The notes under the pieces were generated by a model, which was not told the origin of the DNA, did no database searches, and saw only the letters and a list, made by a program, of their open reading frames with translations. DNA of 64,000 nucleotides from assembly GCA_029260215.1 (NCBI GenBank), contig JAJDDQ010000004.1, forward strand, positions 1 through 64,000, written 5' to 3'. The position numbers and the translations under genes were made by a program. This DNA is from Phycisphaerae bacterium (GTDB taxonomy: Bacteria > Planctomycetota > Phycisphaerae > UBA1845). Shown here piece by piece: positions 10,857 through 28,126 of this stretch (position 1 is the stretch's first letter; every line of letters starts with the position of its first letter).

Positions 10857-11279
10857 CGTCGTTCGACTCTTCGGCGCTGCGGCTTCACCTCCGAACGGTA
10901 TCAAAGCCGGATCGACCGGTTGAACCGTCGAGTCGGTCAAATGGCCGCGAAAGAACATGACGACGCCGACGCCCGGCGCCTGACCGAGCGTCTGCGCCGC
11001 TATGACGAATACCTCTTCACGTTTTTGGATTATTCCTTCGTGACGGCGGACAATAACTTTGGCGAACGACAGATTCGCCCGGCGGTCATTCTGCGGAAAA
11101 ACAGCCAGTCCAATCGTAGCGACCGGGGCGCCGCCACGCAGGCCGTCCTCATGAGCGCGTACCGCACCCTACGCCTTCGAGGCCTGAATCCCACACGAAC
11201 CATCGTCCACGCCATGAAAAACTACCTCACCACCGGCCAACTCCCCCGATTACCCCGACGCGACATTGCAGACGGCTGA
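10857..11279 (+). pseudogene. IS66-family transposase, C-terminal remnant
   Basis: The frame reads out the end of an IS66-type TnpC: an ERYQSRIDRL segment, then KEHDDADARRL..RLRR, then the signature ADNNFGERQIRPAV near 11050-11090, then a NRSDRGAATQAVLMS...R.LNP block and a final .NYLTTGQLP. Intact IS66 transposases are around 450-550 residues. Only the last 140 or so are recognisable here, and the same frame is closed by a TGA at 10713. No tnpA/tnpB partners and no element ends were seen. This is a decayed insertion, part of the evidence that 9.8-16 kb is a recombination-prone island. Confidence 0.85.
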
Positions 11280-11585: not shown

Positions 11586-11771
11586 ATGGTGCGAAAACAG
11601 AAAACACGCAAAAAGAATGCCGTTTTGGAATACCGGCGCCTCCGTTCGGAGGAACTCTCCCGGAAGATCGAAGAACGCCGCGCTGCGGGTGATATCCGTT
11701 CAGCCATCGACATGGCTCTAGGGCGCAAAAATAATTGCCAAGAGTTACAAAAAATTGCCACGATGCGATAG
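11586..11771 (+). CDS. Small basic hypothetical protein
   Basis: A 61-codon frame with a very basic N-terminus (MVRKQKTRKKN) and a charged helical middle (EELSRKIEERRAAG). The nearest purine-rich site (AGGAG at 11562) is about 20 bases before the ATG, too far for a typical ribosome binding site. An overlapping minus-strand frame reading out of 12004 is also open, and its first 45 residues look protein-like, so which strand is coding is unresolved. I do not recognise a family. The setting between two transposase-derived segments suggests cargo or a gene fragment. Confidence 0.35.
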   Translation: MVRKQKTRKKNAVLEYRRLRSEELSRKIEERRAAGDIRSAIDMALGRKNNCQELQKIATMR

Positions 11772-12142
11772 GCGGGGATTGCCTGGTCCCGTCGAGGCGG
11801 GATCAATGAAGGTGGTCGGGGAGTGTTGCCCCACCGACGCGAAAGCGGGGCGGAGCTTGCAGTCGCTTGGTCTGGTACGCCGATCAGGCGCAGCTGTGTT
11901 GAGTTAGTATCCGGTTCGGCATGCGTCGCAAGCACGGGCAAATATGAAATCAGGACGTCCGTCTTTGTCTGTTCAAGCAATCGGATCGCCTCGCGCATGG
12001 CCACGTCGTGATTCAGTTCATCGGTGTCCGAGGCGGACCGGCGGACCGGCGGGGCGACGACACTTGATTGGGAAGTGTCGCCCGATCAATCAGCCCCACC
12101 GGCTCGCCGCCGGAGTTCGTTGCGTCTCCCGTTGAACGGCGT
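11772..12142. other. Gap with GC-rich stem-loop, possible minus-strand gene fragment
   Basis: On the minus strand a stretch from about 12030 down to 11870 reads DELNHDVAMREAIRLLE and onward without stops and looks like a fragment of a real protein, but the remainder degenerates and no family is recognisable. A perfect 8-bp stem (12058-12065 with 12073-12080, 7-base loop) is present without a following T-run. A short GGACCGGC direct repeat sits at 12034-12052. Confidence 0.3.
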
Positions 12143-12508
12143 TCAAACATCGTTTGACCCCTGTTCAAGCGGCACGTGAACGCCGTCGCCGAAGATGATT
12201 CCAGCGTGGCCTTCTTTGTCCACGATGATTGAGAATTTCGCTTTTTCGTCGCCCTCGGGGGCATGCACGAACACGCCAGCCCGCCCCTGTCCGTCGATGA
12301 GCGCGTTGATGCCCAGTCTCCCGCCCGCGTGCTTCATTTGTGCGCCGGTCGTTCCTGAACCACTTACCGACAGGGATAGTCGAACCTCTCCGAAACAATC
12401 CAATAGGCTAAGCGCAACTTGGTCATCGGCGACGCCGAGAATCGCTCGCAGGTTGCCTTCGTCGTCGCGCAAAACGAGTTTGTTCACTTCGAGTCGGTCA
12501 ACTTCCAT
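12143..12508 (-). CDS. Hypothetical protein with repeated RDDEGN/DKEGH beta-strand units
   Basis: The 121-residue product starts MEVDRLEVNKLVLRD and consists of short repeated units of the type L.L.D..G..R..L, with LRDDEGNLRAIL, DCFGEVRLSL, DGQGRAGVFV and DKEGHAGIIFG spaced about 20-25 residues apart, which suggests a small all-beta repeat fold. There is no signal peptide or membrane segment. It is the last gene of a four-gene minus-strand operon, and its start overlaps the preceding gene by 11 bases, implying coupled translation. Similar Asp-Gly beta repeats occur in many uncharacterised bacterial proteins; no function can be assigned. Confidence 0.7.
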   Translation of the reverse strand: MEVDRLEVNKLVLRDDEGNLRAILGVADDQVALSLLDCFGEVRLSLSVSGSGTTGAQMKHAGGRLGINALIDGQGRAGVFVHAPEGDEKAKFSIIVDKEGHAGIIFGDGVHVPLEQGSNDV

Positions 12509-12884
12509 AGCGGTCCACCAATCCGGCCCATCCGCTTGCCATGCCCGTGTTGTTCGTTTCGTTCCGTTTTTGCAACGACGATTGAATCGACCGGCGCGAA
12601 CACGTCATGCGATGCTCGCGCAGGATGCTCTTGATGCCTGCGTCAGCCTGCGTTCTACGAATGATGGCCGAATGGCTGGACGCTGGATCGGCGGCGCGAA
12701 TCTGCCCGTAGAGACGCATGATTTTGATGCGGGCGAATGCCCGTTCAACCGACCGCTCGGGCACCGCTCCGAAGCCCTCCGCGTCCACAGCGAGCATGAG
12801 AACGAGCAGCAACCGCGATCGGTCCAGCCGATCTACAAGGTCGTGCATCGTGGCCCAGTGGGCGCGGGTGAGTTCGTCCGTCAC
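12498..12884 (-). CDS. Hypothetical protein, third gene of overlapping operon
   Basis: A 128-residue product with a helical, Leu-rich first half (MHDLVDRLDRSRLLLVLMLA) and a basic, low-complexity last third (after about residue 85). The ATG overlaps the stop of the upstream gene as ATGA, and the 3' end overlaps the downstream gene by 11 bases. The C-terminal third looks less protein-like than the first half, so a recent frameshift cannot be excluded. No family recognised and no export signal. Confidence 0.6.
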   Translation of the reverse strand: MTDELTRAHWATMHDLVDRLDRSRLLLVLMLAVDAEGFGAVPERSVERAFARIKIMRLYGQIRAADPASSHSAIIRRTQADAGIKSILREHRMTCSRRSIQSSLQKRNETNNTGMASGWAGLVDRYGS

Positions 12885-13150
12885 TGATCTTCCACCAATA
12901 TCAGGCCCTCGGTGATGTCCTGCGGATCGTAATCAAGGCGCTGCACCATCGGATCGCACACAATGTCCTCTTCTGAGTAGTTGCAAACGAACGGTAGAAC
13001 GGTATCGATCAAACTTCGTGTGCAGCACTTCCCGACTTGGTACTTGATCTCTTCAATAATCGCCGCTCGCTCCGGGCAATCGATCGCGTGTTCAATCCAG
13101 TACTCGCGTTTTATCATGAACGTCGCGGTTTTCTTGGTTTTCGTGGCCAT
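12881..13150 (-). CDS. Small acidic hypothetical protein, second gene of overlapping operon
   Basis: The 89-residue product begins with a Lys/Thr-rich segment (MATKTKKTATFMIKREYW) followed by an acidic soluble domain containing four cysteines (one after DCPER, two in KCCTRS, one in FVCNYS, with a fifth in VCDPM). The clustered cysteines could bind metal, but the spacing fits no zinc-finger pattern I know. It overlaps the upstream gene by one base (TAATG) and the downstream gene by four (ATGA), so the three are almost certainly translated from one message. Confidence 0.65.
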   Translation of the reverse strand: MATKTKKTATFMIKREYWIEHAIDCPERAAIIEEIKYQVGKCCTRSLIDTVLPFVCNYSEEDIVCDPMVQRLDYDPQDITEGLILVEDQ

Positions 13151-13707
13151 TACGCAACCCTCCTCGCGTCTTCGATTCGATGCTCAATTTGCTTTGCACC
13201 TTCGAGGCCGTGCAGCACACGCGACGCGCGGCAGAGCATGTCTGCCGTTATCGCGTCGATCGATTTTCGGGACTTTTGGAAGACGTGAATGGACAGCCGC
13301 AAAGCATTGGTGGCTGCACGCAGCCCACCGCATTCCGGCATGTTCGCCAGTGCGTAAAGCCGGCCTCTTGCGTCGGCGGACAAGCGCACTTTGGATTTCG
13401 CGAACACGTTCTTAATGTCGTCCACGCTGAACAGTGGCTCTCCCGCAAGGCGCTCGATGTTGTTCTTCTGCTCTTCCAGCACCGCCTTCTTTGTTTCGAC
13501 GTCTCGCCTGTTGTCGGCATCGCTCTTGAATTGTGCGGCAAAGCCGACCACGACCCCGAGTATCACGACCGGGAGGAACCATCGGCCCGGCCGTGTCAAT
13601 TGGCGCCGGCCGTCGAGGCGCACCGTCGTGAATTCAAACAACCATGACCCTGCTAGCGCAATGCCGGTAGACATCAGCCATGCCGCGTATTTGAGTATGT
13701 CTGCCAT
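13150..13707 (-). CDS. Two-helix membrane protein with coiled coil, first gene of overlapping operon
   Basis: The 185-residue product has two hydrophobic helices, about residues 5-27 (WLMSTGIALAGSWLF) and 43-60 (FLPVVILGVVVGFAAQF). A charged coiled-coil-like segment (about 62-92, DVETKKAVLEEQKNNIERL) and a soluble C-terminal domain of roughly 90 residues follow. A GGAG site five bases before the ATG supports this start. It heads an operon of four genes that overlap end to end. Two membrane helices plus a soluble tail recall anchoring subunits of membrane-associated complexes, but I recognise no family and make no functional claim. Confidence 0.7.
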   Translation of the reverse strand: MADILKYAAWLMSTGIALAGSWLFEFTTVRLDGRRQLTRPGRWFLPVVILGVVVGFAAQFKSDADNRRDVETKKAVLEEQKNNIERLAGEPLFSVDDIKNVFAKSKVRLSADARGRLYALANMPECGGLRAATNALRLSIHVFQKSRKSIDAITADMLCRASRVLHGLEGAKQIEHRIEDARRVA

Positions 13708-13872: not shown

Positions 13873-14292
13873 TTACTCGTTGTCGTCCGCGATGAGTTCA
13901 ACGCCGATTCGTCTTGCCGCGAGTTGCAGATTTTGGTCGAGGGTCCACAGCGGGGCGGACATCGTGACCGCCAATTCAAGATAGGCCGCATCGTAGGATG
14001 ACAATTGATGCGGACGGGCAAACAATGCGAGTTGATCCAACGTGCGGCGCACCGGCTCAGAGCTAATCTCGATATCCAGTGCTTCAAGGATGTGCAGAAA
14101 CCGTGAGCCCAGGGCTGGCGTGATTTTCTTTCGGCGTTCCTTGACCAACACGGCATTGACCAACTCCAACCGCCAAAGTGGCGGAGCTGTCAACGTCAGC
14201 GATTCAATCCGTTCCTCGATTGCGGGTGACTGACCGCCCTCCTCAAGGAGCCATACCAGCGTTACGCTGGCATCAATGATCGCCCTACTCAT
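13873..14292 (-). CDS. PIN-domain ribonuclease toxin, VapC family
   Basis: A 139-residue protein with the PIN-domain layout: Asp7 in IIDASV at the N-terminus, Glu43 in LWRLELVNAVL, Asp101 in SSYDAAYLELA and Asp119 in TLDQNL. These acidic residues form the metal-binding nuclease site in VapC-type toxins, which cut tRNA or other RNA. All four are present, so the enzyme is probably active. The ATG overlaps the stop of an upstream frame as ATGA, the usual antitoxin-toxin arrangement. However, only about the last 14 codons of that antitoxin remain before the IS256-family element begins. Confidence 0.88.
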   Translation of the reverse strand: MSRAIIDASVTLVWLLEEGGQSPAIEERIESLTLTAPPLWRLELVNAVLVKERRKKITPALGSRFLHILEALDIEISSEPVRRTLDQLALFARPHQLSSYDAAYLELAVTMSAPLWTLDQNLQLAARRIGVELIADDNE

Positions 14293-14335
14293 TCTCCGAG
14301 GTAGTCTGGAATCTTGTGGAAATTGATCGAAAAGT
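14289..14335 (-). pseudogene. Antitoxin (VapB-type) 3' remnant cut by IS256-family element
   Basis: In the frame that overlaps the vapC start as ATGA, the residues read INFHKIPDYLGE and stop. This is the position and spacing of a VapB antitoxin tail. Moving upstream on the minus strand, the reading reaches the outer end of the insertion element at 14336 after about 14 codons. No antitoxin-like sequence was found on the far side of the element (15716 onward), so this was not a simple insertion into an otherwise intact gene; a deletion must also be involved. The assignment rests on position only. Confidence 0.5.
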
Positions 14336-15715
14336 GGGGCATCCTCCGGGTTGTTGACAAGACCCTTTTTACTGGAGGAGCCCGATGGCTACGGAACACG
14401 GAACGAAGAAGAATGTCAAGCGGAGCGATAAGGAAGATGCCATGGAGGGTGGCGCGGTGGCGGCGGACCAACTGGAAGCCCTGGCACGGCTTGGGGGCGC
14501 GGGAGATGCTCATGACCGCGCTCCACGAAGAGGTCGAGGCCTACCTGGGCCGCGGACGCTACCAACGCTCAGGCACCGCGGCCCGGTGCGGGGACGGCGA
14601 AACGGCTGAGACGGGTCATCCCTACCGCGGCTATCGCAACGGAACGTCGCCGCGGCGGCTGAAACTGGGCAGCGGGACGGTTCAACTGAAAGTGCCCCGC
14701 GTGCGTGATGTCCCGCCCGAGCAGGATCCCTACGAATCGAAGATCATTGGCAAGTATCAGCGTCGCAGCGATACCATCGACGAGACCTTCATGAATCTGT
14801 TCATCGAAGGACTGGCCACACGCGACTTCGAGCCGTCGCTGCGACTGCTTCTCGGCGAGCAGGCTGCACTGTCGCCAAGCACGATCAGCCGGATGACGCA
14901 GAAGTTCAAGGCTGAGTACGCGGCATTCGATCAGCAGGATCTGAGCGAGCGGAAGTACTTCCATATCTGGTCCGACGGCATTTACCTGAAAGCCGGTCTG
15001 GGCAAGGAGAAGGCGTGCCTGATGGCTCTGATCGGTGCGGACACGGAAGGCAAGAAGCACCTCATTGCGTTGCGTGAGGGGCATCGTGAGAGCGCCGACA
15101 GTTGGAGTGCCTTGCTGAAAGACTGTCGCCGGCGCGGGCTGAATCAACCAGCGTGCTGGATCGCCGATGGCGCCCTGGGCTTGTGGGCGGCGGTGAACGA
15201 GCACAGTCCGGATTCCAAACAGCAGCGTTGCACGAATCACAAAACGATGAATGTGATCGATAAGTTGCCGAATTCGGAACAGCCCGAAGCCATCAAACGT
15301 CTGCGTGCCATTTGGCAGTCGGACAGTGAAGTTGCAGCACGAGAGCTGGCGACGAAGCTGGTCGCAGACTTCGGCACGGCGGGCTACGACCGGGCGGCGG
15401 CGTGTCTGGAAGATGATCTGGACCGTTGTCTGACGTTCTATGCCTTCTCGGAGCCGCACTGGTCGCACTTACGCACATCGAACGTGGTGGAATCTCCGTT
15501 CGCGGGCGTGCGATTGCGAACGAACCCAGCCAAGCGATTCAAGAAGACCAAGAGCGGCGTGTGCATGGTGCACCAGGTGTTGGTCCGGCTGTCACAGAAT
15601 TGGCGTCGTCTCAAGTCGGCTCAGCTGTGCAGCCAAGTCCAACTCCCGGGGGCCACGGCCGCGTCCCCCAAAGCGGAGTGACGGAAACGAAACCGATGAA
15701 CTCACAGGATGCCCC
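14336..15715 (+). mobile_element. IS256-family insertion sequence
   Basis: The element is bounded by inverted ends beginning GGGGCATCCT: left end at 14336, right end reading inward from 15715. They share 10 identical bases and then diverge. Inside lies one transposase of the mutator/IS256 type. IS256 elements usually duplicate 8-9 bp of target, but the flanks (CGAAAAGT on the left, GAATCGAG on the right) are unrelated. This points to a rearrangement after insertion or to a composite event. Confidence 0.8.
14385..15681 (+). pseudogene. IS256-family transposase with a one-base frameshift
   Basis: The natural start is the ATG at 14385, preceded by GGAGGAG, and gives MATEHGTKKNVKRSDKED... up to LEALARLG. 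The conserved body (GAREMLMTALHEEVEAYLG onward) is in the next frame. The join falls in the GGGGG run at 14493-14497, where one G fewer would restore a single frame. The body carries the expected DDE landmarks: Asp in HIWSDGIYLK, Asp in WIADGALGLW, the C..H block QRCTNHKTMN and Glu in NVVESPFAGVR. An open frame from 14314 also covers the body but begins with unrelated residues. The element is either dead, or relies on slippage at the G run as some insertion sequences do. Confidence 0.8.
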
Positions 15716-17560: not shown

Positions 17561-19147
17561 ATGTACGACCAAATTCGTCACGGCACCTTTTGCTTCGTCG
17601 TCGCAAGCACTATTTCGATGGCGGTCGCCTCGGGACCGGTTCCCATTATTTCCGAGGCGCTCTCGTGCGGTCAACAAGGGCAGGCCGGCGGACTGGCCAA
17701 CGGAATAGAATTGCAGCGGTTCGACCTCGACCTGTCGGTGTTTCCGGATGCCCTCTGCAACGATGGGTCCACTGCGGTGTTTTACTTCCGGCCGTTCTCT
17801 GGTCCGGCCAATCGTGATCGGTGGCTCTTTCAACTTCAGGGTGGCGGCGGGTGCGGGTCCGGCGAACGCTGCGCCCAGCGCTGGTGCATGATCGACACGG
17901 CATTCAGCTTGGTGGGGATGACCTCCACCGTCGCGCCGGCGGTGGCTATTAACGGCAAGGGCATCACAGATCGCAGACCAGCCAATCCGTTTGGTAATTG
18001 GAATCACGTATTCATCAAGTACTGTAGTTCAGATTCGTGGAGAGGAGTGTCGCGTGATGTCATCCTGCAAACCGACATCGAAGGGCCGCTTGTCGATTAC
18101 CGGATCCACTTTCTGGGCAATCGTATCATAGATGCCGTGCTGGACACGCTTCGGCGCGATGGCGTGTCTGCATCCGTGTATACACAGGGACCGACGCCCG
18201 TACCCATGCCCGATCTCGACAATGCAACGCACGTGATTCTTGCCGGCGCGTCGGCAGGCGGCAGCGGAGTCATTCAGAACGCCGATCGTGTCGGCGACTA
18301 TCTTCACGCGAATAACACAGCCTGCGCCGGCGATGAATGTCCTTTGGTGTTTCGCGTTTTGATCGATTCCTCCTTCGCGCCAAGTCTGGAAGACCTCGAT
18401 ATCACAACCTCGACATTTTGCACCGATTTCAAAATTTGCGATTGGCAGGCGCTGCTCGCATTCGGCACTGCGGCCCACGATCCCAATATCGATCAAAGTT
18501 GTTTTGAATGGCATCAAACCAATGCTCCCGGGACCGAGTGGCAGTGTGACGACGCCGGCCACGTCATTCGACATCACGTGACCACACCGATGTTTGTTAG
18601 AATGGGACAAAAAGACTCGCTGGTCTCATCCAACTTCATCAACACCGGTTACTCGGTACCGGGAAAGGGATCGCTCGATCTCCCTCTATTCATGGAGATT
18701 GTTCGCGATGAGTGTGCCAGTCTCGTGAACATTCAGGCGACGGCCCACGAGGGTGCGACTATTCCTGTTCTTCCCGGCGTTTTTTCGCCCAGGTGCCCGA
18801 AACATGAGACGCTGCGCAGCTCACCCGATACGTACAACGCCGTCATAAACGACGGGCCGACAAACCTGGCGATGTTTAATGTCTTCACCAATTGGATCAA
18901 CGGTTCGCAACCCAGCGTATTGATTACGCCCGACGGTGGTAGTGACTTCTGTCCCGGGTTCCTCCCGGCGGATTGCAATTTCGACGATTTAGTCGATTTG
19001 GATGACTTTATCGGATTCCAGAATTGTGCAACCGGTCCTGCCGAAGTGATCTCGCCCAACTGCGTCTGTTACGACATTGACACCAGCCAGACCGTCGACA
19101 TGATTGATTTCTCCGCGCTGCAACAAAACTTCACCGGAACACCGTAG
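17561..19147 (+). CDS. Secreted Notum/pectinacetylesterase-like hydrolase with dockerin-like tail
   Basis: A 528-residue product from the ATG at 17561 (a TTG three codons upstream is possible) begins with a signal peptide ending near ASG. The body resembles the pectinacetylesterase/NOTUM carboxylesterase family: an oxyanion segment FQLQGGGGCGSG, the nucleophile motif GASAGGSG with Ser231, an Asp269 in IDSSF and His415 in RCPKHE form a plausible triad. Many cysteines suggest disulfides. The last 60 residues carry two Asp-rich loops (NFDDLVDLDDFIGF and IDTSQTVDMIDF) typical of planctomycete dockerin-like modules. In this family the substrates are acetylated pectin or, in animals, palmitoleoylated Wnt. 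Removal of acetyl groups from polysaccharide is the likely role here, by inference. Confidence 0.85.
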   Translation: MYDQIRHGTFCFVVASTISMAVASGPVPIISEALSCGQQGQAGGLANGIELQRFDLDLSVFPDALCNDGSTAVFYFRPFSGPANRDRWLFQLQGGGGCGSGERCAQRWCMIDTAFSLVGMTSTVAPAVAINGKGITDRRPANPFGNWNHVFIKYCSSDSWRGVSRDVILQTDIEGPLVDYRIHFLGNRIIDAVLDTLRRDGVSASVYTQGPTPVPMPDLDNATHVILAGASAGGSGVIQNADRVGDYLHANNTACAGDECPLVFRVLIDSSFAPSLEDLDITTSTFCTDFKICDWQALLAFGTAAHDPNIDQSCFEWHQTNAPGTEWQCDDAGHVIRHHVTTPMFVRMGQKDSLVSSNFINTGYSVPGKGSLDLPLFMEIVRDECASLVNIQATAHEGATIPVLPGVFSPRCPKHETLRSSPDTYNAVINDGPTNLAMFNVFTNWINGSQPSVLITPDGGSDFCPGFLPADCNFDDLVDLDDFIGFQNCATGPAEVISPNCVCYDIDTSQTVDMIDFSALQQNFTGTP

Positions 19148-19242
19148 CAGCATGTTGCTTGCGGTCGATCGCCCGCTCCGAGTAGAATTTCCGACGAGCG
19201 TTCGCCCAACGCGGACCCCCGACGCCAAAGGAGGAACAAGGC

Positions 19243-19512
19243 ATGTCCGAGCCGGAACCATCGTCAGCGACAGATTCACCCGATCCACTAGAGTTGAAGA
19301 GGGCCATGAAAGCGTTCAAGAAGCGTCTCAAGCTTTCCCGCCTCGACGACGAATCGAGGCTTGGTGTCGGCTCGATGACGGGCGGTAACGCTTCGGGCAT
19401 TATGGCGATCACACCGCCCAATCAGTATCCGCAGGCCATCTGGGACGAACTCGTCAAAAAGGGCAAGCTCAACTACACAGGCCACGGGCTCTACGAGTTG
19501 GTAAAAACGTAA
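19243..19512 (+). CDS. Small conserved-looking hypothetical protein
   Basis: An 89-residue product with a strong ribosome binding site (AAAGGAGGAACAAGGC before the ATG). After an acidic N-terminus it has a basic helix (KAFKKRLKLSRLDDESRLG), a Gly-rich turn (GSMTGGNASGI) and a C-terminal segment containing PNQYPQAIWDELVKKGKL. I believe similar short proteins occur in other planctomycetes, but I cannot verify that here and know no function. It is cytosolic, with no signal peptide. Confidence 0.7.
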   Translation: MSEPEPSSATDSPDPLELKRAMKAFKKRLKLSRLDDESRLGVGSMTGGNASGIMAITPPNQYPQAIWDELVKKGKLNYTGHGLYELVKT

Positions 19513-19620
19513 CGCCGACCGAGCAGCCCACGACAAGTCGTGGACCGACGCCCGGATCAACAGCGCTCATGCACATCCAGCGGCGATCCACGCGCGTTCG
19601 AAGTACCGATTCACACGGGC

Positions 19621-20199
19621 TTAGTCGGTAAAGCTCAGTTGGAATTCGGCGAAGTCCCGAAAATCCACAGCGTTGTCTCCGTCAAAATCAAAGGCCTGAC
19701 ACTGGGCTGGGACGGCACCACCGCCGGGCCCGGTCTCACAATCGAGAAACGCGTCGAAGTCCAGCAGGTCAACATCGCCGTCGCCGTCACCGTCACCCGG
19801 AACCGCCACCGCTTCGATGGTGAGATTGGCATTGCTGATGTCCAAATAGTCCGTTGCGGAGTTGTCCATTCGGACACGAACGCGAACCTGCGTGGACGGA
19901 GCGTCGGGGATTGTCCAATTGAAGGTATGGACGCTGTTGACCGCGCCGCTGCCGGCTGGGAGGTTTTGGGCGATGTTGATCCAAGGCCCTCCTGCTCCGG
20001 TTGTGGAATACCAAAGATCCCAGTTCTGGAGATTGTGGGATATCTGAATGCGCCACGTGATTGTGAATTGTGACCCAACCTGAAGAACCTCTCCGCCGTT
20101 GGGATCGTCAAGAATGACATGCCCCTCAGAGGGCGCGGCAAGGACAAAGAGTACGCCAATGGTTGTCACAATATTCATGCAAAATGATTGGAGTCGCAT
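19621..20199 (-). CDS. Small secreted protein with Kre9/KNH-like and dockerin-like domains
   Basis: The 192-residue product has a signal peptide (residues 8-26). A domain starting ILDDPNGGEVLQVGSQFTI and continuing through ITWRI, NWDLWYST and GGPW follows. This pattern is seen in the Ser/Thr-rich GPI-anchored (Kre9/KNH-like) family of beta-sandwich wall proteins. The C-terminal 60 residues are a dockerin-like pair of EF loops (DGDGDGDVDLLDFDAF and FDFDGDNAVDFRDFAEF). It is probably an accessory surface or wall protein. It points towards the dnaK gene and ends 94 bases from the next plus-strand gene's stop. Confidence 0.8.
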   Translation of the reverse strand: MRLQSFCMNIVTTIGVLFVLAAPSEGHVILDDPNGGEVLQVGSQFTITWRIQISHNLQNWDLWYSTTGAGGPWINIAQNLPAGSGAVNSVHTFNWTIPDAPSTQVRVRVRMDNSATDYLDISNANLTIEAVAVPGDGDGDGDVDLLDFDAFLDCETGPGGGAVPAQCQAFDFDGDNAVDFRDFAEFQLSFTD

Positions 20200-20606
20200 G
20201 ACGCTGCCTTTCGTATTGAATCGGTTATGCCCTGTCTAGCCCGATGGGGTTTGATCGATCACGGGAGAGTCCGTCCGAAGGTTACGGCAACCCGTAAATC
20301 GCCCTGGCACCCTTACGACGCCCAAACTCCACGCTCGGACGCGCACCCCGCACGCCCCTGTTCGCACGCCATTATAACCACGCCGGGAGCCGTCGCACAA
20401 GCATTCTCAAGAATGAGATTGGCAAAAGGGGGCCGGAATTCCTTTGAAAAACCCTGTCCGGGGGTGAGAGAGCGTATAAAAAGCCTTATCAGAGCCGCGA
20501 CCGTGAGGGAGCGGTCCGCTTTGCCCCGGGAAATCACTCCTCCGTGCCCCCGCGTTGGTCGCGATCAGAGGCGAGGCCCGGAGGAGAACCTTCTTGAACA
20601 CCCCTC
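20200..20606. other. Intergenic region downstream of dnaK
   Basis: The promoter of the small secreted gene must lie near 20200-20300 on the minus strand, but I see no convincing boxes. The remainder holds short open stretches on both strands with no ribosome binding sites and no recognisable protein. Confidence 0.4.
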
Positions 20607-20644
20607 AAAGAAAAACTGCTGGAACGGACCTCGATCCGCTCCAG
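20607..20644 (-). terminator. Rho-independent terminator of dnaK
   Basis: On the minus strand a 10-bp stem (20635-20644 with 20619-20628, one G-U pair, six-base loop) is followed by CAG and then TTTTTCTTT. It begins 45 bases after the dnaK stop. Confidence 0.8.
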
Positions 20645-20688
20645 CCGTTTCGTGTTCTTGCTCTGGCCGCCAGCAACCGCAGCTGCTG

Positions 20689-22620
20689 CTACTTGGCGTC
20701 TTTGACCTCAAACTCGGCGTCGATGACGTCATCACCCGCTCCGCCCGAGCCGCCGCCCTCCGCCGCACCATCCGGCGCGCCAGCCTGACCGGCTTCAGCC
20801 TCTTTGGCTGCCTGCTCGTAGATGACCTTGCCGATGGCCTGCGATGCCTGCATGACGTTTTCGATGGCCTTTTGAATCGCGTCAGCGTCGTCATTCTTGA
20901 CCACGTCGCGAACATTGGAAAGCGCCGACTCGACCTGGCCTCTTTCCTCAGCCGAAACCTTCTCGCCGTGCTCTTTCAGCACGTTCTCGGTTTCGTAAAT
21001 GACCTGATCCGCACGGTTGCGGGCCTCAACAAGAACGCGAAGCTTGCGATCGTCTTCCGCGTTGGCCTCCGCCTCGTTCTTCATCCGCTCGATGTCCTTC
21101 TCATCCAGGCCGGACGAGTCTTTGATCTCGATGCGGTTTTCCTTGCCGGTAACCTTGTCACGCGCGGTAACATTGAGAATACCGTTGGCATCGATGTCGA
21201 ACGTCACCTCGACCTGCGGTGTGCCCCGGCGTGCCGGCGGAATCCCGGTGAGGTTGAACCGCCCGAGTGAACGATTCGCGGACGCCATTTCGCGCTCACC
21301 CTGCATCACGTGAATGGTCACCTCCGGCTGATTGTCGGCTGCGGTGCTGAACACTTCCGACTTGCTCGTCGGAATGGTCGTGTTGCGTTCGATGAGCTTG
21401 GTCATCACCCCGCCCAGCGTTTCAACCCCCAGCGAAAGCGGTGTCACGTCCAGCAGAACGACATCACTCTTCTCGCCCGCGAGGATCGCACCCTGAATCG
21501 CCGCTCCGACCGCGACAACCTCGTCCGGATTGATGCTCTTGTTCGGCTCGATGCCGAAGATGTCTTTAACAAGCTGCTGAACCGACGGGATACGCGTCGA
21601 ACCGCCGACCACGAGCACCGTGTCCACCTTACCGTTGAATGTTTTCTGCTTCTTCTGAGCATCCGCCAATGCGGTCATGACCGGCTTGCGACAGCGCTCC
21701 GTCAGGTCGCGCGTGATCTGCTCGAATTTGCTGCGCGTGACCGTCATCTGCAAATGCTTAGGCCCACTCTGGTCGGCGGTGATGAATGGCAGATTGATCG
21801 TTGTCTCGATGGCCGTCGAAAGTTCGCACTTGGCCTTCTCGCATGCTTCCTTCAAGCGCTGGAGCGCCATCGGGTCTTTGCGAAGATCGATGCCCTCCTT
21901 CTTGCGGAACTCCTCCGCCGCGAAGTCGATCAGCTCTTCGTCGTAGTCGTCTCCGCCAAGGTGGCCGTCGCCGTTGCTGGACAACACCTCGTACACGCCC
22001 TCGGAGTCGATATCGAGGATCGAAAAATCGAACGTGCCGCCGCCAAGATCGAACACGGCGATGTGTTGCGACTTGGTACCGTCAAGACCGTACGCAAGCG
22101 CCGCCGCCGTCGGTTCGTTGATGATGCGCTCCACCTTCAAGCCGGCAATCTCGCCTGCGTCCTTGGTGGCTTTACGCTGCGAATCGTTGAAGTAGGCCGG
22201 CACGGTGATGACCGCGCGGTCCACCTTCTCGCCGAGGTAATCCTCAGCCGTCTTCTTGAGATCCTGGAGGATCATCGCACTGATTTCCGGCGGCGTGTAG
22301 TCCTTGCCACGGGCGTGGACTTTTACGAGATCGCTCGGGCCGCCGACGACCTTGTACGGGACAATTTTCTCTTCGTCCGCCACTTCGTCGTGACGCCGTC
22401 CCATGAATCGCTTGATGCTGTAAACCGTGTTGGTCGGATTGGTGACCTGCTGATGCCGTGCGATCTGGCCCACAAGCCGCTCATTCTTGTCTGTAAACGC
22501 CACGACAGACGGCGTCAGCCGCGATCCCTGAGCGTTGGTCAGCACCTTAGGCTGGTCGCCTTCCATGACGCTGACCACGGAGTTTGTCGTGCCGAGATCG
22601 ATTCCGATGATTTTTCCCAT
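20689..22620 (-). CDS. dnaK: Chaperone DnaK (Hsp70)
   Basis: At 643 residues this is full length. The N-terminal ATPase domain starts [15 protein letters not shown] and contains [30 protein letters not shown] and [12 protein letters not shown]; the hydrophobic linker [18 protein letters not shown] follows near residue 390. The substrate-binding domain and helical lid end in a Gly-rich linker and the acidic tail [12 protein letters not shown]. DnaK binds exposed hydrophobic peptides in the cytosol and works with DnaJ and GrpE, neither of which is in this window. AGGAGG eight bases before the ATG supports the start. A terminator follows, so it appears monocistronic. No CIRCE element is present upstream. 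Confidence 0.98.
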
Positions 22621-22715
22621 GTTCAGTACCTCCTGCGGTTATCAAAGGCCACCGTTTGCGCACGACGGCCCGCTTGGGTAGCAAGCAATCCCGGTGCCGC
22701 GCAGCACGGCTGGCG

Positions 22716-22756
22716 AATTTATTTATAATCTATTTATTTACAAATAGTTACGTGTT
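22716..22756 (-). promoter_or_regulatory. AT-rich promoter region of dnaK
   Basis: In an otherwise GC-rich gap there is a 40-base AT-rich block in which the nonamer TAAATAAAT occurs twice (minus strand, 15 bases apart) around GATTATAAAT. It lies about 100-135 bases before the dnaK start. This is a likely promoter or operator, but the exact boxes are not clear. Confidence 0.45.
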
Positions 22757-22874
22757 TTCCGCGGCGGGCATGGCCGGTCGTCCGGCGTGATTCTGCCAAC
22801 ATGGCAGCGTAACAATGCGTCAATTCGGCGGTTTTTTGTTTCCCAAGACGCCTTGTGTCCGTACACTCTGCTTG

Positions 22875-23357
22875 ATGGCACTAGAGCCGTTTGAAACCGC
22901 TGCGTCCGAGGATTACCCTACCGTCGTCCAGCTTTCCGTCTTTCTGGACGATCGCGTGGGGCAGTTGCTGCGTATGACCCAGGCCTTCAGGGATACCGAT
23001 ATCCGCATCTGGGGGCTGATGGTGGTCAATTCCGTCGATTGTGCGATTGTGCGCATGATCGTGGACGATCCCGACGAAGCCTACGACATGCTTGTTTCGC
23101 ATCGATTTCCAGTCAAACAAACGGATGTCGTGGTCGTCCGCGTGCCGCACGGCAAACGGGCACTGCTCAACGTGTGGTCGGCTGTCCTGCGGGCGGAAAT
23201 CAACATCGATTACACCTACGCGCTCATGGGCCACGTGCGCGGCGCACCGACAATCGCGATTCACTCCGAAAGCCTTCAGATGGCCTGCGACACGCTGGTA
23301 CGACACAACTTCAGCGTCCTGAGCGTGAGTGACCTGCACGCCGAACGGAACGAATGA
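22875..23357 (+). CDS. Tandem ACT-domain protein
   Basis: Starting at ATG 22875 (an earlier ATG at 22815 would add 20 uncharacteristic residues), the 160-residue product has two ACT-like halves. The first contains VVQLSVFLDDRVGQLLRMTQAFRD and then DIRIWGLMVVNSVDCAIVRM; the second contains RALLNVWSAVLRAEINIDYTYALM. ACT domains bind amino acids or other small ligands and regulate enzymes; a stand-alone protein of this type is likely a sensor or regulator. It is divergent from dnaK and converges on the PQQ-propeller gene with five bases between the stops. Confidence 0.8.
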   Translation: MALEPFETAASEDYPTVVQLSVFLDDRVGQLLRMTQAFRDTDIRIWGLMVVNSVDCAIVRMIVDDPDEAYDMLVSHRFPVKQTDVVVVRVPHGKRALLNVWSAVLRAEINIDYTYALMGHVRGAPTIAIHSESLQMACDTLVRHNFSVLSVSDLHAERNE

Positions 23358-23362
23358 CCGGT

Positions 23363-24868
23363 TTACCCTGTCGCACGAAAATCGTAGCACAACAATCGCG
23401 GTGAAGACTTGGAAACGGTATCCGGGCGCGCCTGGAGAATGTAGAGCAACCCGCGCGAAATCACCGGCGGCGCGTAGGTCTCTTCCGCCGAGAATAACTT
23501 CGTTCGCGCTGCGACACGCACGCCGTCCGGTGACATGGCCAACCACAAGAGATCGCCACGCTCACCAAGACACAGGAAACGCCCGTCCGCCCAAAGCAGT
23601 GAGCTTCGCAACGGACTCATGGTCATGGTCTGTTTGCCACGGGACGTGTCGACCTGCTGCTTCCATTCGATCCGCTCGCGCCAGACGAGTCGCCCGGTGT
23701 CGGCTTTGAGGCACACAAATTCGATTTTCGACGCCTTCTCCCCATCGACACCGTAGAGGTAGCCGTCTCGATAAATCGGCGTCGCCCAATGCGCGCCCAG
23801 GTCTTTCGTTGTCCAGACGACCTCGTGCGAACCGTCCGGCTTCACATCGATCATCGCACCACCCGTGCCGTAGGAGGCCGTCACAAAAACACGATCGCCG
23901 ACGATTACCGGGGTGGCTGCATTGACCGAGTTGTATTTCCGGCTGCGCCAAGGAAATCGAAACCGAATCGAACCGTCGGACGGATCGACCGCGAGCAGCC
24001 CGCCGACCGGGGGCTTGCTGTCGCCGCCGGCAAACGCGAACACGTACCGCTTCCCATGCATGTCAGCCGCTACGGGTGACGCGTAACTGGGTGCCCAAAG
24101 ATCGCCGGCACCCCAAACCAATTTGCCATTGCGCTTGTCGAAGGCGGCCAGACAAGGCCCTTTGGGGGCACCGAGGTTGACGATCAACAGGTCGCCCTCG
24201 ATCAAGGGTGTCGAGCCGATACCGAAATACTCCTGCGGCACGTGGAACTCTTCCGAAAGTTGCCGCTGCCAAAGCAGGCAGCCGGTGCGCAAATCCAAGC
24301 AGCTCAATCGTCCTTCGACGCCATGCACATAGACGCGATCCTCGTCAATTATGGGACTGGAACGCGGGCCACCGTTAAAACCGAACCGGTCGCGGTAGTC
24401 CGTCTTGTATTCGTATCGCCAATAGCGACGTCCGGTTTCGGCGTGGAGGCAGTCCACGATTGCGCTGTCGCCTTCACGGTGAAACAGCACAAGCCGGTTG
24501 CCAACGACCGACGGCGATGCATACCCTTCGCCGATCGTCACTTCCCAGACGAGACGTGGCAATTGCGCGCCGAAGCTCTTGAGCAGATTCGTCTCTCTGC
24601 TTTGACCGTCCTGCCGAGGCCCCAAAAAGGTCGGCCAATCCTCCGTCACGGCTGACGGAGCGAGCGTCTTGGGCGGGGAATGGTACGAGAGATTGTCGTA
24701 AGCGACCGGCTTCGGCAGGGCGCCAACGGTGCATTTGTTCAACACGGGTGTGGCTGGATCGGCGAATTGGCTGTGTGATTCGGAATTGCCGGAGTCGTCA
24801 GCGAAGCAATTGAAACACGGTACGATCGCAGCCAGCAGAATCGCGCAGACGCGCGTGCGACTCAACAT
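23363..24868 (-). CDS. Secreted PQQ-like beta-propeller protein
   Basis: I choose the ATG at 24868 because it is followed at once by a signal peptide (RVCAILLAAIVPCFNCFA). A longer frame to 25051 contains another hydrophobic segment but no ribosome binding site. The 501-residue product has the repeating PQQ/WD pattern DW.TFLGP..DGQS, then IGEGYASPSVVGNRLVLFHR, CLHAETGRRYWRYEY, CLDLRTGCLLWQRQL, AFDKRNGKLVWG and LKADTGRLVWRER, about eight blades. Planctomycetes have many such outer-surface propellers. Without dehydrogenase residues it is more likely a binding or scaffold protein than an enzyme. This recalls BamB-like folds, but there is no lipobox. Confidence 0.85.
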   Translation of the reverse strand: MLSRTRVCAILLAAIVPCFNCFADDSGNSESHSQFADPATPVLNKCTVGALPKPVAYDNLSYHSPPKTLAPSAVTEDWPTFLGPRQDGQSRETNLLKSFGAQLPRLVWEVTIGEGYASPSVVGNRLVLFHREGDSAIVDCLHAETGRRYWRYEYKTDYRDRFGFNGGPRSSPIIDEDRVYVHGVEGRLSCLDLRTGCLLWQRQLSEEFHVPQEYFGIGSTPLIEGDLLIVNLGAPKGPCLAAFDKRNGKLVWGAGDLWAPSYASPVAADMHGKRYVFAFAGGDSKPPVGGLLAVDPSDGSIRFRFPWRSRKYNSVNAATPVIVGDRVFVTASYGTGGAMIDVKPDGSHEVVWTTKDLGAHWATPIYRDGYLYGVDGEKASKIEFVCLKADTGRLVWRERIEWKQQVDTSRGKQTMTMSPLRSSLLWADGRFLCLGERGDLLWLAMSPDGVRVAARTKLFSAEETYAPPVISRGLLYILQARPDTVSKSSPRLLCYDFRATG

Positions 24869-25103
24869 TCCGTGCGGGGCGATCGTTGATCTTGTTGTCT
24901 GGGTCATCATCAAACACAGTATCACAGCCGCCAGCGATAGCCAATACACATTGGGCCGGATTGCTCTGCGTGTGATCAACGCCGACCTTACCGGTTGGCT
25001 ACGCCTTGAAGCACACAAGGCACGAGGTGGGAAGAAATTGAAAACGCCCATCGCCCTGAATCAAGGCGACAGGCGTGTTTTTGAAATCTCGATCGCTACC
25101 GGT

Positions 25104-25886
25104 CTAGTTCAAGCGGCGACGAATCGCACCGATCATGCCGAAGCCAGCCATCGCCAACACCGCAGCCGCGGGAGCCGGAATGACGTTGAAATCGGTGATT
25201 GCACCGGAACCAGCGAAACTCACAGTCATCGACGTTACGGTGTTGATGTCGAAGCCAGCCATCTCGGTCACCGTCGCAAAGAGCGCCGGATTGTCGAAAC
25301 TTTGCTGTGCGGACGTTGTGTTGAAGAACAAAGTCTGGATGCCAAGGTGACCAGCGGCGATGTCACCAGTCCAACCGTCGGGAACCGTAAACGTTCTCGT
25401 CAGATTCGACACATCGCGCAAGGTGACCGTCAAGTTGCCGCCAGAATTAATGTCGATAACCGACGTTGAACGGATATGGGCCGGCGTCGCGAAATCGAGA
25501 CGAAACGCACCACCGATGTTGTCATTGCCGCCATTGTCGAAGATGCCGTCGGCGGGACTGAGGTCGTCGCCGAACGTCTGACCGGCTGGAAGCTGCCCGC
25601 CATCCCCGCGATCACCGTCTTCCTGGATGATGAACGCGTTTCCGCGATCCACCAGAAGGTCGAGGTCGTTTAGGGATGTGTTCGTTGCCACATCGGTATC
25701 GAACGCTGCCACACCCGCTCCCCCGAACAGGTAGGTGACCAACGCGCTGTTTGCACCGCTCTGAGTGAAAATCGTGTCGCCATCCAGGTTCTCGCCGTCG
25801 GCGAAGCTGCTCAGGTCCAGCAGACCGGCAGACGCGACGCTCGCGAGAGACATGACGACAGCGCCAACAAAAAAGTTCCGAAACAT
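25104..25886 (-). CDS. Secreted protein with PEP-CTERM-type sorting tail
   Basis: The 260-residue product starts after an AGGAG site, with signal peptide MFRNFFVGAVVMSLASVASA. The mature part is rich in Asp, Asn, Gly and Thr and lacks cysteine, as in PEP-CTERM extracellular matrix proteins. The C-terminus IPAPAAAVLAMAGFGMIGAIRRR has the Pro-x-Pro motif, a hydrophobic helix and an Arg cluster that define a PEP-CTERM-type anchor processed by an exosortase. No exosortase gene is in this window. Function of the body is unknown. Confidence 0.85.
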   Translation of the reverse strand: MFRNFFVGAVVMSLASVASAGLLDLSSFADGENLDGDTIFTQSGANSALVTYLFGGAGVAAFDTDVATNTSLNDLDLLVDRGNAFIIQEDGDRGDGGQLPAGQTFGDDLSPADGIFDNGGNDNIGGAFRLDFATPAHIRSTSVIDINSGGNLTVTLRDVSNLTRTFTVPDGWTGDIAAGHLGIQTLFFNTTSAQQSFDNPALFATVTEMAGFDINTVTSMTVSFAGSGAITDFNVIPAPAAAVLAMAGFGMIGAIRRRLN

Positions 25887-26114
25887 CGTTCTCGTTGCTC
25901 CTTAAATTTACAACACGCAAGTTGCTTGCGAATACAGAAGAGTTACCCCACCACTCCGGGACGGATACTATAGCTTTTCGCGCGGCGACGCAAGCATTTT
26001 CGCAGCCGAAGCGCGAATTTTTGGAGAGGAAAAACAGACAGAAACTAAAGCAGGGAAGTAAGTTACCGATTTACCGGTCGCGATTCGACGGCACGGCAGT
26101 TCCGGCCAACCGGC

Positions 26115-27047
26115 CTACGGGATATGCGGACTTTGGGCCAGGTCCGTTAACGCGAGAACAGAGCCGCCCGCCCAAAAAGGCTCGGTCACAACCACGCCTG
26201 CGACCAACGCCCAAATGAGGATGGTGCCAATAAAAGGGCGATCGTGAATGAATATCTCGGTAGGACCGGCGATCCGCCCCGATTGCACAAGCATCGCATA
26301 GCGAAAAACGCCGTAAATGACCATAGGAAGCGTGTACAACAGGTGGCGCTTCGGAAAGGCTGTGGGCGTGTCGGCGTCCATTGTGTAAAGCAGGAAAGTC
26401 ATAACGGCTATGCCGGCTGAAACACTTATGAGGTTATTCAGCAGCTCGGGCGTGTATCCGGTAAGGGTTTTCCGGAAGGAAGCCGCCTCACCCTTACCGG
26501 TGAAGGCGTCGATCTCGCATCGTCGCTTGCCGAAGCCCATGAACATGCACAGCGTAAAAGTGCAGACGATGAGCCAGGGGGACACATAGGCGTCCACAGC
26601 CTCAGCGCCCGCGACCGTGCGTATCACAAACCCGACGGCGATGATGATGACGTCCAGAATCATGCGTTTTTTGAGCGACAGGGAATAAGCCAGCACCAGC
26701 ACGAAATAACCCGCCACCAGGGCTGTCACGACGGGGTTCAGGAAAACGATGCACACGGTCAGGGAAACGGTAATCAGCAAGGCCGACCACGCGACGGCCC
26801 CTGCGGGGGAAACGTTACCGGCTGCGATGGGCCTGAATTTCTTGGTCGGGTGGAGGGCGTCCGCGTGGCGATCGATCAGGTCATTGATCGCGTAGCTGGC
26901 GCTGGCAGCCAGGCAAAACGCTCCAAAAACGTACGCACAGCGGATCATCGAGGCTGGATCGAGGCTCATCGCGAATACCGGACCCGCGAGAACCGCAAGG
27001 TTCTTGATCCATTGCCGAGGCCTCATCAATGCCACATAGTGTCTCAT
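26115..27047 (-). CDS. UbiA-family prenyltransferase, decaprenyl-phosphate phosphoribosyltransferase-like
   Basis: A 310-residue integral membrane protein with about eight or nine helices. The first Asp-rich motif reads ND..D...D..HP.K.FRPIAAG (residues 55-78), the version that characterises 5-phosphoribosyl-1-pyrophosphate:polyprenyl-phosphate transferases rather than ubiquinone or heme prenyltransferases. The second motif is degenerate, around KRRCEID. Such enzymes make polyprenyl-phosphoryl ribose, the precursor of arabinose or ribose donors for envelope glycans in mycobacteria. The gene is divergent from galE and a GT4 gene, which supports a role in surface polysaccharide. DprE1/DprE2 homologues are not in the window, so the downstream sugar is unknown. 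Confidence 0.8.
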   Translation of the reverse strand: MRHYVALMRPRQWIKNLAVLAGPVFAMSLDPASMIRCAYVFGAFCLAASASYAINDLIDRHADALHPTKKFRPIAAGNVSPAGAVAWSALLITVSLTVCIVFLNPVVTALVAGYFVLVLAYSLSLKKRMILDVIIIAVGFVIRTVAGAEAVDAYVSPWLIVCTFTLCMFMGFGKRRCEIDAFTGKGEAASFRKTLTGYTPELLNNLISVSAGIAVMTFLLYTMDADTPTAFPKRHLLYTLPMVIYGVFRYAMLVQSGRIAGPTEIFIHDRPFIGTILIWALVAGVVVTEPFWAGGSVLALTDLAQSPHIP

Positions 27048-27058
27048 GATTGCTTAGG

Positions 27059-27080
27059 GTCGGCTTGCGGATAAGCCGAC
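27059..27080. repeat. Short palindrome between divergent genes
   Basis: GTCGGCTT (27059-27066) and AAGCCGAC (27073-27080) form a perfect 8-bp stem with loop GCGGAT. It sits 11 bases before the UbiA-like start and 57 before galE. It could be a shared operator or a small dispersed palindrome; a T-run is absent. Confidence 0.5.
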
Positions 27081-27136
27081 TTCTACAAAATGGCGTCCGC
27101 AAAGCAACGACGCCGGTCGAAATCGAGGGAAACAGA

Positions 27137-28126
27137 ATGAAAATACTTGTTACCGGAGGAGCGGGCTACGTCGGCAGTCACAGTGTTCGCGGACTTTGCG
27201 ACGCGGGCCATGATGTCGTTGTGTTCGATAATCTTGTCGCCGGACACCGCGGCGCGGTTGATGAACGGGCTTCGTTCGTGGAGGGCGATCTCGGAGACGC
27301 TGAATTGGTCCGCTCGACGCTGGCCAACGGCGGGTTCGAGGGCGTCTTGCACTTCGCAGCATTTCTGGACGTAAACGAATCCGTACGCGACCCGCTCAAG
27401 TACTACGTCAACAATATCGTACACACCGTGCGGCTTCTGGAAGCGTTACGCGACGCGGGCGTGAAGCGTTTCGTATTCAGTTCGACCTGTGCGACGTACG
27501 GCGAACCGGAAACCTGTCCCATTCGCGAAGACATTCCGCAAGCCCCCATCAATCCGTACGGGCACACAAAACTGGCGATGGAGTTCGCCATGCGCGACTG
27601 CGCTCAAGCGTGGGGATTGGGCGGGACAGCCCTTCGATACTTCAACGCGGCTGGTGCTTCAGCGGACGCGAGGATCGGCGAGGATCACGATCCGGAGATA
27701 CACCTGATCCCAATCGTTCTGCAAGTCGCACTAGGCCAGCGCGAAAAAGTGTTCATCTTCGGAACGGACTATCCAACACCGGACGGCACGTGCATCCGGG
27801 ATTACATTCACGTCGAAGATTTGGCTGACGCCCACGTGCGGGCGATCGAATCGCAACCGCCGGGCGTCTTCCGCTTCTACAACGTGGGCACAGGCCAGGG
27901 CACGAGCGTGCGAGAGATCATCGACGGCGCGCGCGAGGTCACCGGGCATGCGATACCAGCCGACGAATCTCCGCGTCGCGCGGGCGACCCGCCGGCGCTC
28001 TATGCAGACCCGTCCAAGATCAAACGCGAGCTGGGCTGGTCTCCGAAGTACACGAACACTCAAGACGTAATCCGTACAGCCTGGGGCTGGCACGAAACGC
28101 ATCCGCAGGGTTACGCCGATCGGTAA
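27137..28126 (+). CDS. galE: UDP-glucose 4-epimerase
   Basis: The ATG at 27137 follows GAGGGA. The 329-residue product is a full-length extended SDR: NAD-binding ILVTGGAGYVGSH at the N-terminus, DNL for ribose contact, SSTCATYG with the catalytic Ser/Thr region, and YGHTK with the catalytic Tyr and Lys. The substrate loop LRYFNAAGA and the GT.YPTPDGTCIRDYIHV block mark it as GalE rather than a general sugar epimerase. It interconverts UDP-glucose and UDP-galactose for envelope glycan synthesis. The GT4 gene starts seven bases after its stop, so the two are one operon. Confidence 0.95.
   Translation: MKILVTGGAGYVGSHSVRGLCDAGHDVVVFDNLVAGHRGAVDERASFVEGDLGDAELVRSTLANGGFEGVLHFAAFLDVNESVRDPLKYYVNNIVHTVRLLEALRDAGVKRFVFSSTCATYGEPETCPIREDIPQAPINPYGHTKLAMEFAMRDCAQAWGLGGTALRYFNAAGASADARIGEDHDPEIHLIPIVLQVALGQREKVFIFGTDYPTPDGTCIRDYIHVEDLADAHVRAIESQPPGVFRFYNVGTGQGTSVREIIDGAREVTGHAIPADESPRRAGDPPALYADPSKIKRELGWSPKYTNTQDVIRTAWGWHETHPQGYADR

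Follow-up and report, generated by a model that had tools for sequence, protein, structure and literature searches.

Here, we propose that four overlapping genes at positions 12143-13707 of a 64,000-nucleotide stretch of Phycisphaerae DNA (hereafter the window) are very probably what remains of the left end of a compact Mu-like transposable element. The proposal is based on a sister copy in the same genome, where the block forms one arm of an element with exact ends, and on related elements in other genomes. We draw a distinction between the four genes, which are an ordinary remnant, and the element they came from, which is unusual: from four decayed genes the trail leads to Mu-like elements of 9.3 kb with exact boundaries, and some of these carry capsid and protease genes, without a packaging motor.

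An overlapping operon of coding genes

All four genes are present on the minus strand. The first encodes a chimeric protein of 185 aa (13150-13707), the second a small acidic protein of 89 aa (12881-13150), the third a protein of 128 aa identified below by profile matches (12498-12884), and the fourth an Asp/Gly-repeat protein of 121 aa (12143-12508). Successive genes overlap by 1, 4 and 11 bases, and the sequence-only reading, which had seen a genuine operon of overlapping genes in mobile, accessory DNA, was correct in this respect.

Between the window and its sister copy on contig C73, dN/dS is 0.073 for the 121-aa protein (95% identical), 0.27 for the 128-aa protein and 0.18 for the 89-aa protein, with a synonymous excess in each (Fisher p = 5e-11, 2e-5 and 2e-5, respectively). 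Because the overlaps are kept in the C73 copy and the substitutions are biased towards synonymous changes, the last three genes are real and coding, beyond what chance reading frames would give. A fifth small gene (about 43 aa, '..DVLISYLPVLATHA..', about 11870-11998, minus strand) belongs to the same block: it has homologs in the corresponding blocks of genomes G020 (77 aa) and G025 (65 aa), with which it has an LIxLxPVxxxHA motif in common. A mutation has removed its stop codon from the window copy; in C73 the codon is intact.

The sister copy and the origin of the chimera

Searches of Pfam, NCBIfam and PHROGs with the window proteins themselves returned nothing usable for the four genes, and it is C73 that shows their origin, where window positions 11717-13440 align at 90% identity. 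The order there is a 694-aa MuA transposase (DDE_2; PHROG 310 transposase, E 5e-51), a 383-aa MuB ATPase (AAA_22; tblastn to phage Mu B, E 4e-11; PHROG 296 "DNA transposition protein", E 1.5e-38), and then the genes for 89, 128 and 121 aa, which overlap as they do in the window. The C73 element also encodes a Mu protease I (Mu-like_Pro, E 1.2e-41) and a tape-measure-like open reading frame, and has no capsid gene.

The last ~98 residues of the window's 185-aa protein (13150-13443, minus strand) are 93% identical to the end of the C73 MuB and represent the 3' end of a truncated gene. Homology to C73 breaks off at the fusion point, about 13443, which indicates that a deletion or similar rearrangement made the chimera. 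The remaining 86 aa (13444-13707, minus strand), a foreign two-helix membrane segment, have no relative in 198 genomes of the class or in a plasmid collection. What had been called a two-helix membrane protein is therefore a foreign N-terminus joined by deletion, in frame, to the tail of MuB. The earlier view that none of the four products is recognisable stands for the 89- and 121-aa proteins and falls for the other two, one ending in the MuB C-terminus and the other resembling a MuA DNA-binding domain.

The original operon was thus MuA-MuB-89aa-128aa-121aa-(43aa), reading toward a left end at 11717. With the deletion went MuA, most of MuB and the remainder of the element, and the MuB tail became attached to the start of an unrelated membrane protein. 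All that survives in the window is the left ~1.7 kb (11717-13443), and this copy is no longer able to transpose on its own. Divergence between the two copies is mosaic, with 3.3% mismatches in 13443-13021 and 12.3% in 13020-12143 (p 2e-8), suggesting past recombination or gene conversion between them.

Element ends and target duplications

Homology between the copies ends at window position 11717 and C73 position 18863, at the terminus TCTAGGGCGC. In the window this left end (11717-11765, plus strand) includes two AATTGCC repeats, at 11733 and 11753, and at the right end of the C73 element inverted AATTGCC copies lie near 28100, as inverted AATTGCCAAA sites. The repeats are presumptive MuA-binding sites.

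The C73 element occupies 18863-28122 (9,260 bp) and is flanked by a 5-bp target duplication, GCCAA. When its flanks are joined without the element, a host reading frame is restored and a continuous protein runs through '..ALPTAWLWHRDRQPPANHCQSCGYNLTG..'. These exact ends and the restored host frame identify the operon as that arm of a Mu-like element which runs to its left end. A relative in G009 (locus L019, 5515-14787) measures 9,273 bp, is flanked by the duplication ATCAT and has an empty site in a sister species. In the C73 copy and this relative, insertion has thus involved units of 9.26-9.27 kb and duplicated 5 bp of target.

In the window, the 5' part of an open reading frame (start at 11586; 11586-11716, plus strand) runs up to the element's left end and was presumably a host gene interrupted by the insertion. 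The last five bases before 11717, ATGGC, are the presumptive target duplication; the right end of the element has been lost, probably together with the other half of the interrupted frame.

Some compact elements lie just upstream of regulator genes. The G009 element (ending at 14787 of L019) is ~119 bp before an ArsR-methyltransferase gene, and the L016 element is near the same ArsR gene; an element in genome G252 (contig C62, L061/L091) is ~139 bp before a TetR gene; and the L018 and L024 elements, in two genera, are upstream of lexA. A preference for target sites upstream of regulator genes is possible.

The 128-aa protein and the other small genes

A profile of the 128-aa protein and its G025 and G020 homologs, which are located downstream of MuB in those genomes, matches the N-termini of MuA in five loci (L025, L059, L060, L061 and L019). 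The 128-aa protein matches the PHROG 310 (MuA) profile at positions 96-181 (E 7e-4), and profile-profile comparison with MuA by hhalign gives E 9.5e-7 over 80 columns. We take the matched part of MuA to be the I-beta/I-gamma region, which in phage Mu recognises the element ends. C73 and G025 are the two elements in which an intact MuA accompanies a separate 128-aa gene, and in both MuA is without a GxxGLxDRRG-like stretch that six MuA proteins from elements lacking the gene have kept; the association of a shorter MuA with a stand-alone gene covers these two elements.

Given this profile homology, the 128-aa protein is best read as a putative detached MuA-type DNA-binding domain. Its AlphaFold model has a mean pLDDT of 66.7 and is confident only for residues ~50-105; fold comparison with this low-confidence model listed nothing above Z 3.1 and no MuA domain. 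PDB sequence searches with the profile gave no match, and the phage collection gave no convincing one. Several low-scoring profile matches (e.g. L034-L036 and L038-L042) were dropped, as stops broke them up or they proved unrelated.

The 89-aa protein has a homolog at the same position in G020 (E 4e-6) and none was found in G025, where a 101-aa gene in the same place proved not to be homologous and was rejected. The 121-aa protein has no relative in viral contigs, and its PDB sequence search was also empty. It is close to identical only in the two copies of this genome, with weak cousins elsewhere (22-44% identity), and is probably accessory cargo.

In an intact element, MuA would pair the ends and join them to target DNA, while MuB would capture the target and activate MuA. 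The 89- and 43-aa proteins may act as small early regulators. For the 128-aa protein, a suggestion that we hold at close to even, if on the lower side, is that it would bind the AATTGCC end repeats and adjust transposition, either as an aid to MuA or as its competitor. An end-binding domain of MuA encoded as a protein in its own right would give DDE transposition a regulatory part of a new kind.

A probable class of compact elements

Relatives in the same family have a recurring layout, in which capsid T, DUF2190 and often RHH genes on one strand face Xre, protease I, MuA and MuB. Related elements are found at G252:C62 (14,153 bp, with a portal gene), G025:C93, G016:C10, G030:C38, G030:C2 (with a portal gene) and G006:C140, and remnants with a homolog of the 128-aa protein at G020:C19 and G014:C13; some of the compact elements run off contig ends, details of their order vary, and not all are complete. 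No terminase was found in the compact elements examined, the terminases of those genomes being located elsewhere. The C73 and G009 elements lack portal, terminase and tail genes, except for the tape-measure-like frame in C73, and the G252:C62 element has a portal and no terminase. C73, G009, G025, G252:C62, G016 and other elements all encode their own means of moving together with only part of a virion gene set.

The compact relatives are likely to be Mu-type satellites and may be parasites of the machinery of other viruses, with helper dependence inferred from the missing terminase and tail genes. More tentatively, and as a fuller account that we consider possible but less likely than not, 9-14 kb Mu-type satellites would be widespread in Phycisphaerales, the window fragment being one. 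They would supply their own MuA and MuB, protease-scaffold, capsid, head-decoration and often tape-measure proteins, and a helper would lend the packaging motor and tail, with the detached DNA-binding domain helping to control transposition. The tape-measure, capsid, protease-scaffold and head-decoration genes would then be the parts that set particle size. The helper in this account could be either the complete Mu-like phages of the family or a conserved, vertically inherited, Mu-derived (gene-transfer-agent-like) host cluster, described below. Genome G252 holds both a compact element and a complete-looking Mu-like phage (C7:22001-80000; L060, L092 and L093) with terminase, portal, capsid and tail genes, MuA and MuB.

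Alternative explanations

In light of the flanking DNA, might the four genes be a working operon of the host, or of a defence system, with products that assemble into one complex at the membrane, as the sequence-only reading supposed? The overlaps are conserved and purifying selection acts between the two copies, and the neighbourhood is of a suitable kind: Pfam and NCBIfam identify an IS66 piece (10920-11279) and an IS256 element (14314-15681) on either side of the block and a weak PIN match at 13873-14292. The IS remnants and PIN match of the proposed island setting are there, on mobile accessory DNA, but nothing ties the block to defence, since these neighbours are located beyond the left end of the element and beyond the junction that the deletion left, and neither database detects a defence-type domain in the block. 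As to whether the gene order travels with mobile elements and defence genes, the order is partly shared elsewhere, and the relatives are inside transposable elements. With the first gene a MuB fragment fused to an unrelated segment, there is no basis for a membrane-attached complex, and the C73 copy sits within a transposable element with exact ends and a target-site duplication. A membrane or defence operon is strongly disfavoured, and we consider it very improbable. As for the PIN-domain gene itself, no adjacent antitoxin was seen, and the IS256 transposase frame begins 22 bp beyond it; the IS256 insertion may have removed an antitoxin partner.

Another explanation, to which we assign a substantial minority of our belief, accepts the Mu origin and denies the compact class: the window and C73 copies would be what is left of ordinary Mu-like prophages of ~30-40 kb after separate deletions had taken out their packaging and tail genes. 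The same family does contain complete Mu-like phages that have a terminase (G252:C7, G012:C16 and G025:C200), the window copy is clearly deleted, and C73 lacks the capsid gene present in other compact elements. However, the C73 and G009 elements have intact ends and 5-bp duplications and are almost the same length (9,260 and 9,273 bp), yet their MuB proteins are only ~29% identical; the same divergent layout without terminase is seen in several genera; and in two of the compact elements purifying selection is seen on MuA and MuB (0.12 and 0.10). A narrower doubt concerns the 128-aa protein, which could act in repressing the element's transcription and not in transposition. This is a credible minority view, as MuA-type DNA-binding domains can serve either role, the protein is a small HTH-type product within the early operon, and in Mu itself the repressor and the transposase use related DNA-binding domains. 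Against it, the match is to the end-binding region of MuA, not to the operator-binding N-terminal part, and the elements already have separate RHH and Xre regulators.

A Mu-related virion cluster in the hosts

Beyond the elements, a T-type capsid gene is present in most genomes of the order among those searched. A terminase in the same orientation precedes it by 2.8-4.8 kb in 33 genomes, a count that includes a few complete phages. Neither MuA nor MuB accompanied the cluster (terminase-portal-protease-DUF2190-capsid-connector) at the nine loci examined, one of which had its terminase end off-contig, and this conserved Mu-related virion cluster is near-universal in families f1, f5 and f8. One example is G000:C47:152032-157325 (L103), with equivalents in about 33 genomes, many of which also have tail-like genes. 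The cluster is a candidate domesticated prophage or gene transfer agent.

Capsids of the elements are 48-64% identical to a core-cluster capsid, and that of a complete phage is 29% identical. That the element capsids are nearer to the core cluster suggests, speculatively, that the elements and the host cluster may share machinery or ancestry. A capsid tree did not resolve element and core capsids as separate clades.

Comparison with known systems

Preferring the reading of the window genes as a remnant of a compact Mu-like element, how does such an element compare with what is known? A description of compact Mu-like elements with capsid and protease and no packaging motor was not found in the open-access papers searched, nor was one of a Mu-related transfer agent in this group. 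With phage Mu, the elements have in common the MuA DDE transposase, the MuB AAA ATPase, the Mu protease I (in the C73 element) and the 5-bp target duplication, and C73's relatives add a Mu-type major head protein T and a DUF2190-type head protein. They differ in being about 9.3 kb rather than ~37 kb, in having a MuA-MuB arm that reaches one end with small extra genes after MuB, and in having, among the elements examined, neither a terminase nor any tail gene other than one for a tape-measure-like protein.

Capsid-forming PICIs are phage satellites with capsid homologs. In SaPIbov5, Ccm is homologous to the capsid protein of the helper and redirects the size and shape of the capsid (PMC8569155). 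The compact elements resemble these satellites in being small and mobile and in pairing a capsid homolog with an incomplete virion gene set, but they move by MuA and MuB, the compact relatives also encode protease and tape-measure-like proteins, and their satellite status is read here from their genes. If they are satellites, a transposition-based branch would be added to the phage satellites.

With a head and packaging cluster related to Mu so nearly universal in the order, a gene-transfer-agent hypothesis for Planctomycetota would become directly testable. As with gene transfer agents such as RcGTA, the f1, f5 and f8 host genomes carry a conserved terminase-portal-protease-DUF2190-capsid-connector cluster without MuA or MuB; unlike them, the host cluster is known from gene content and is related to Mu-like phages.
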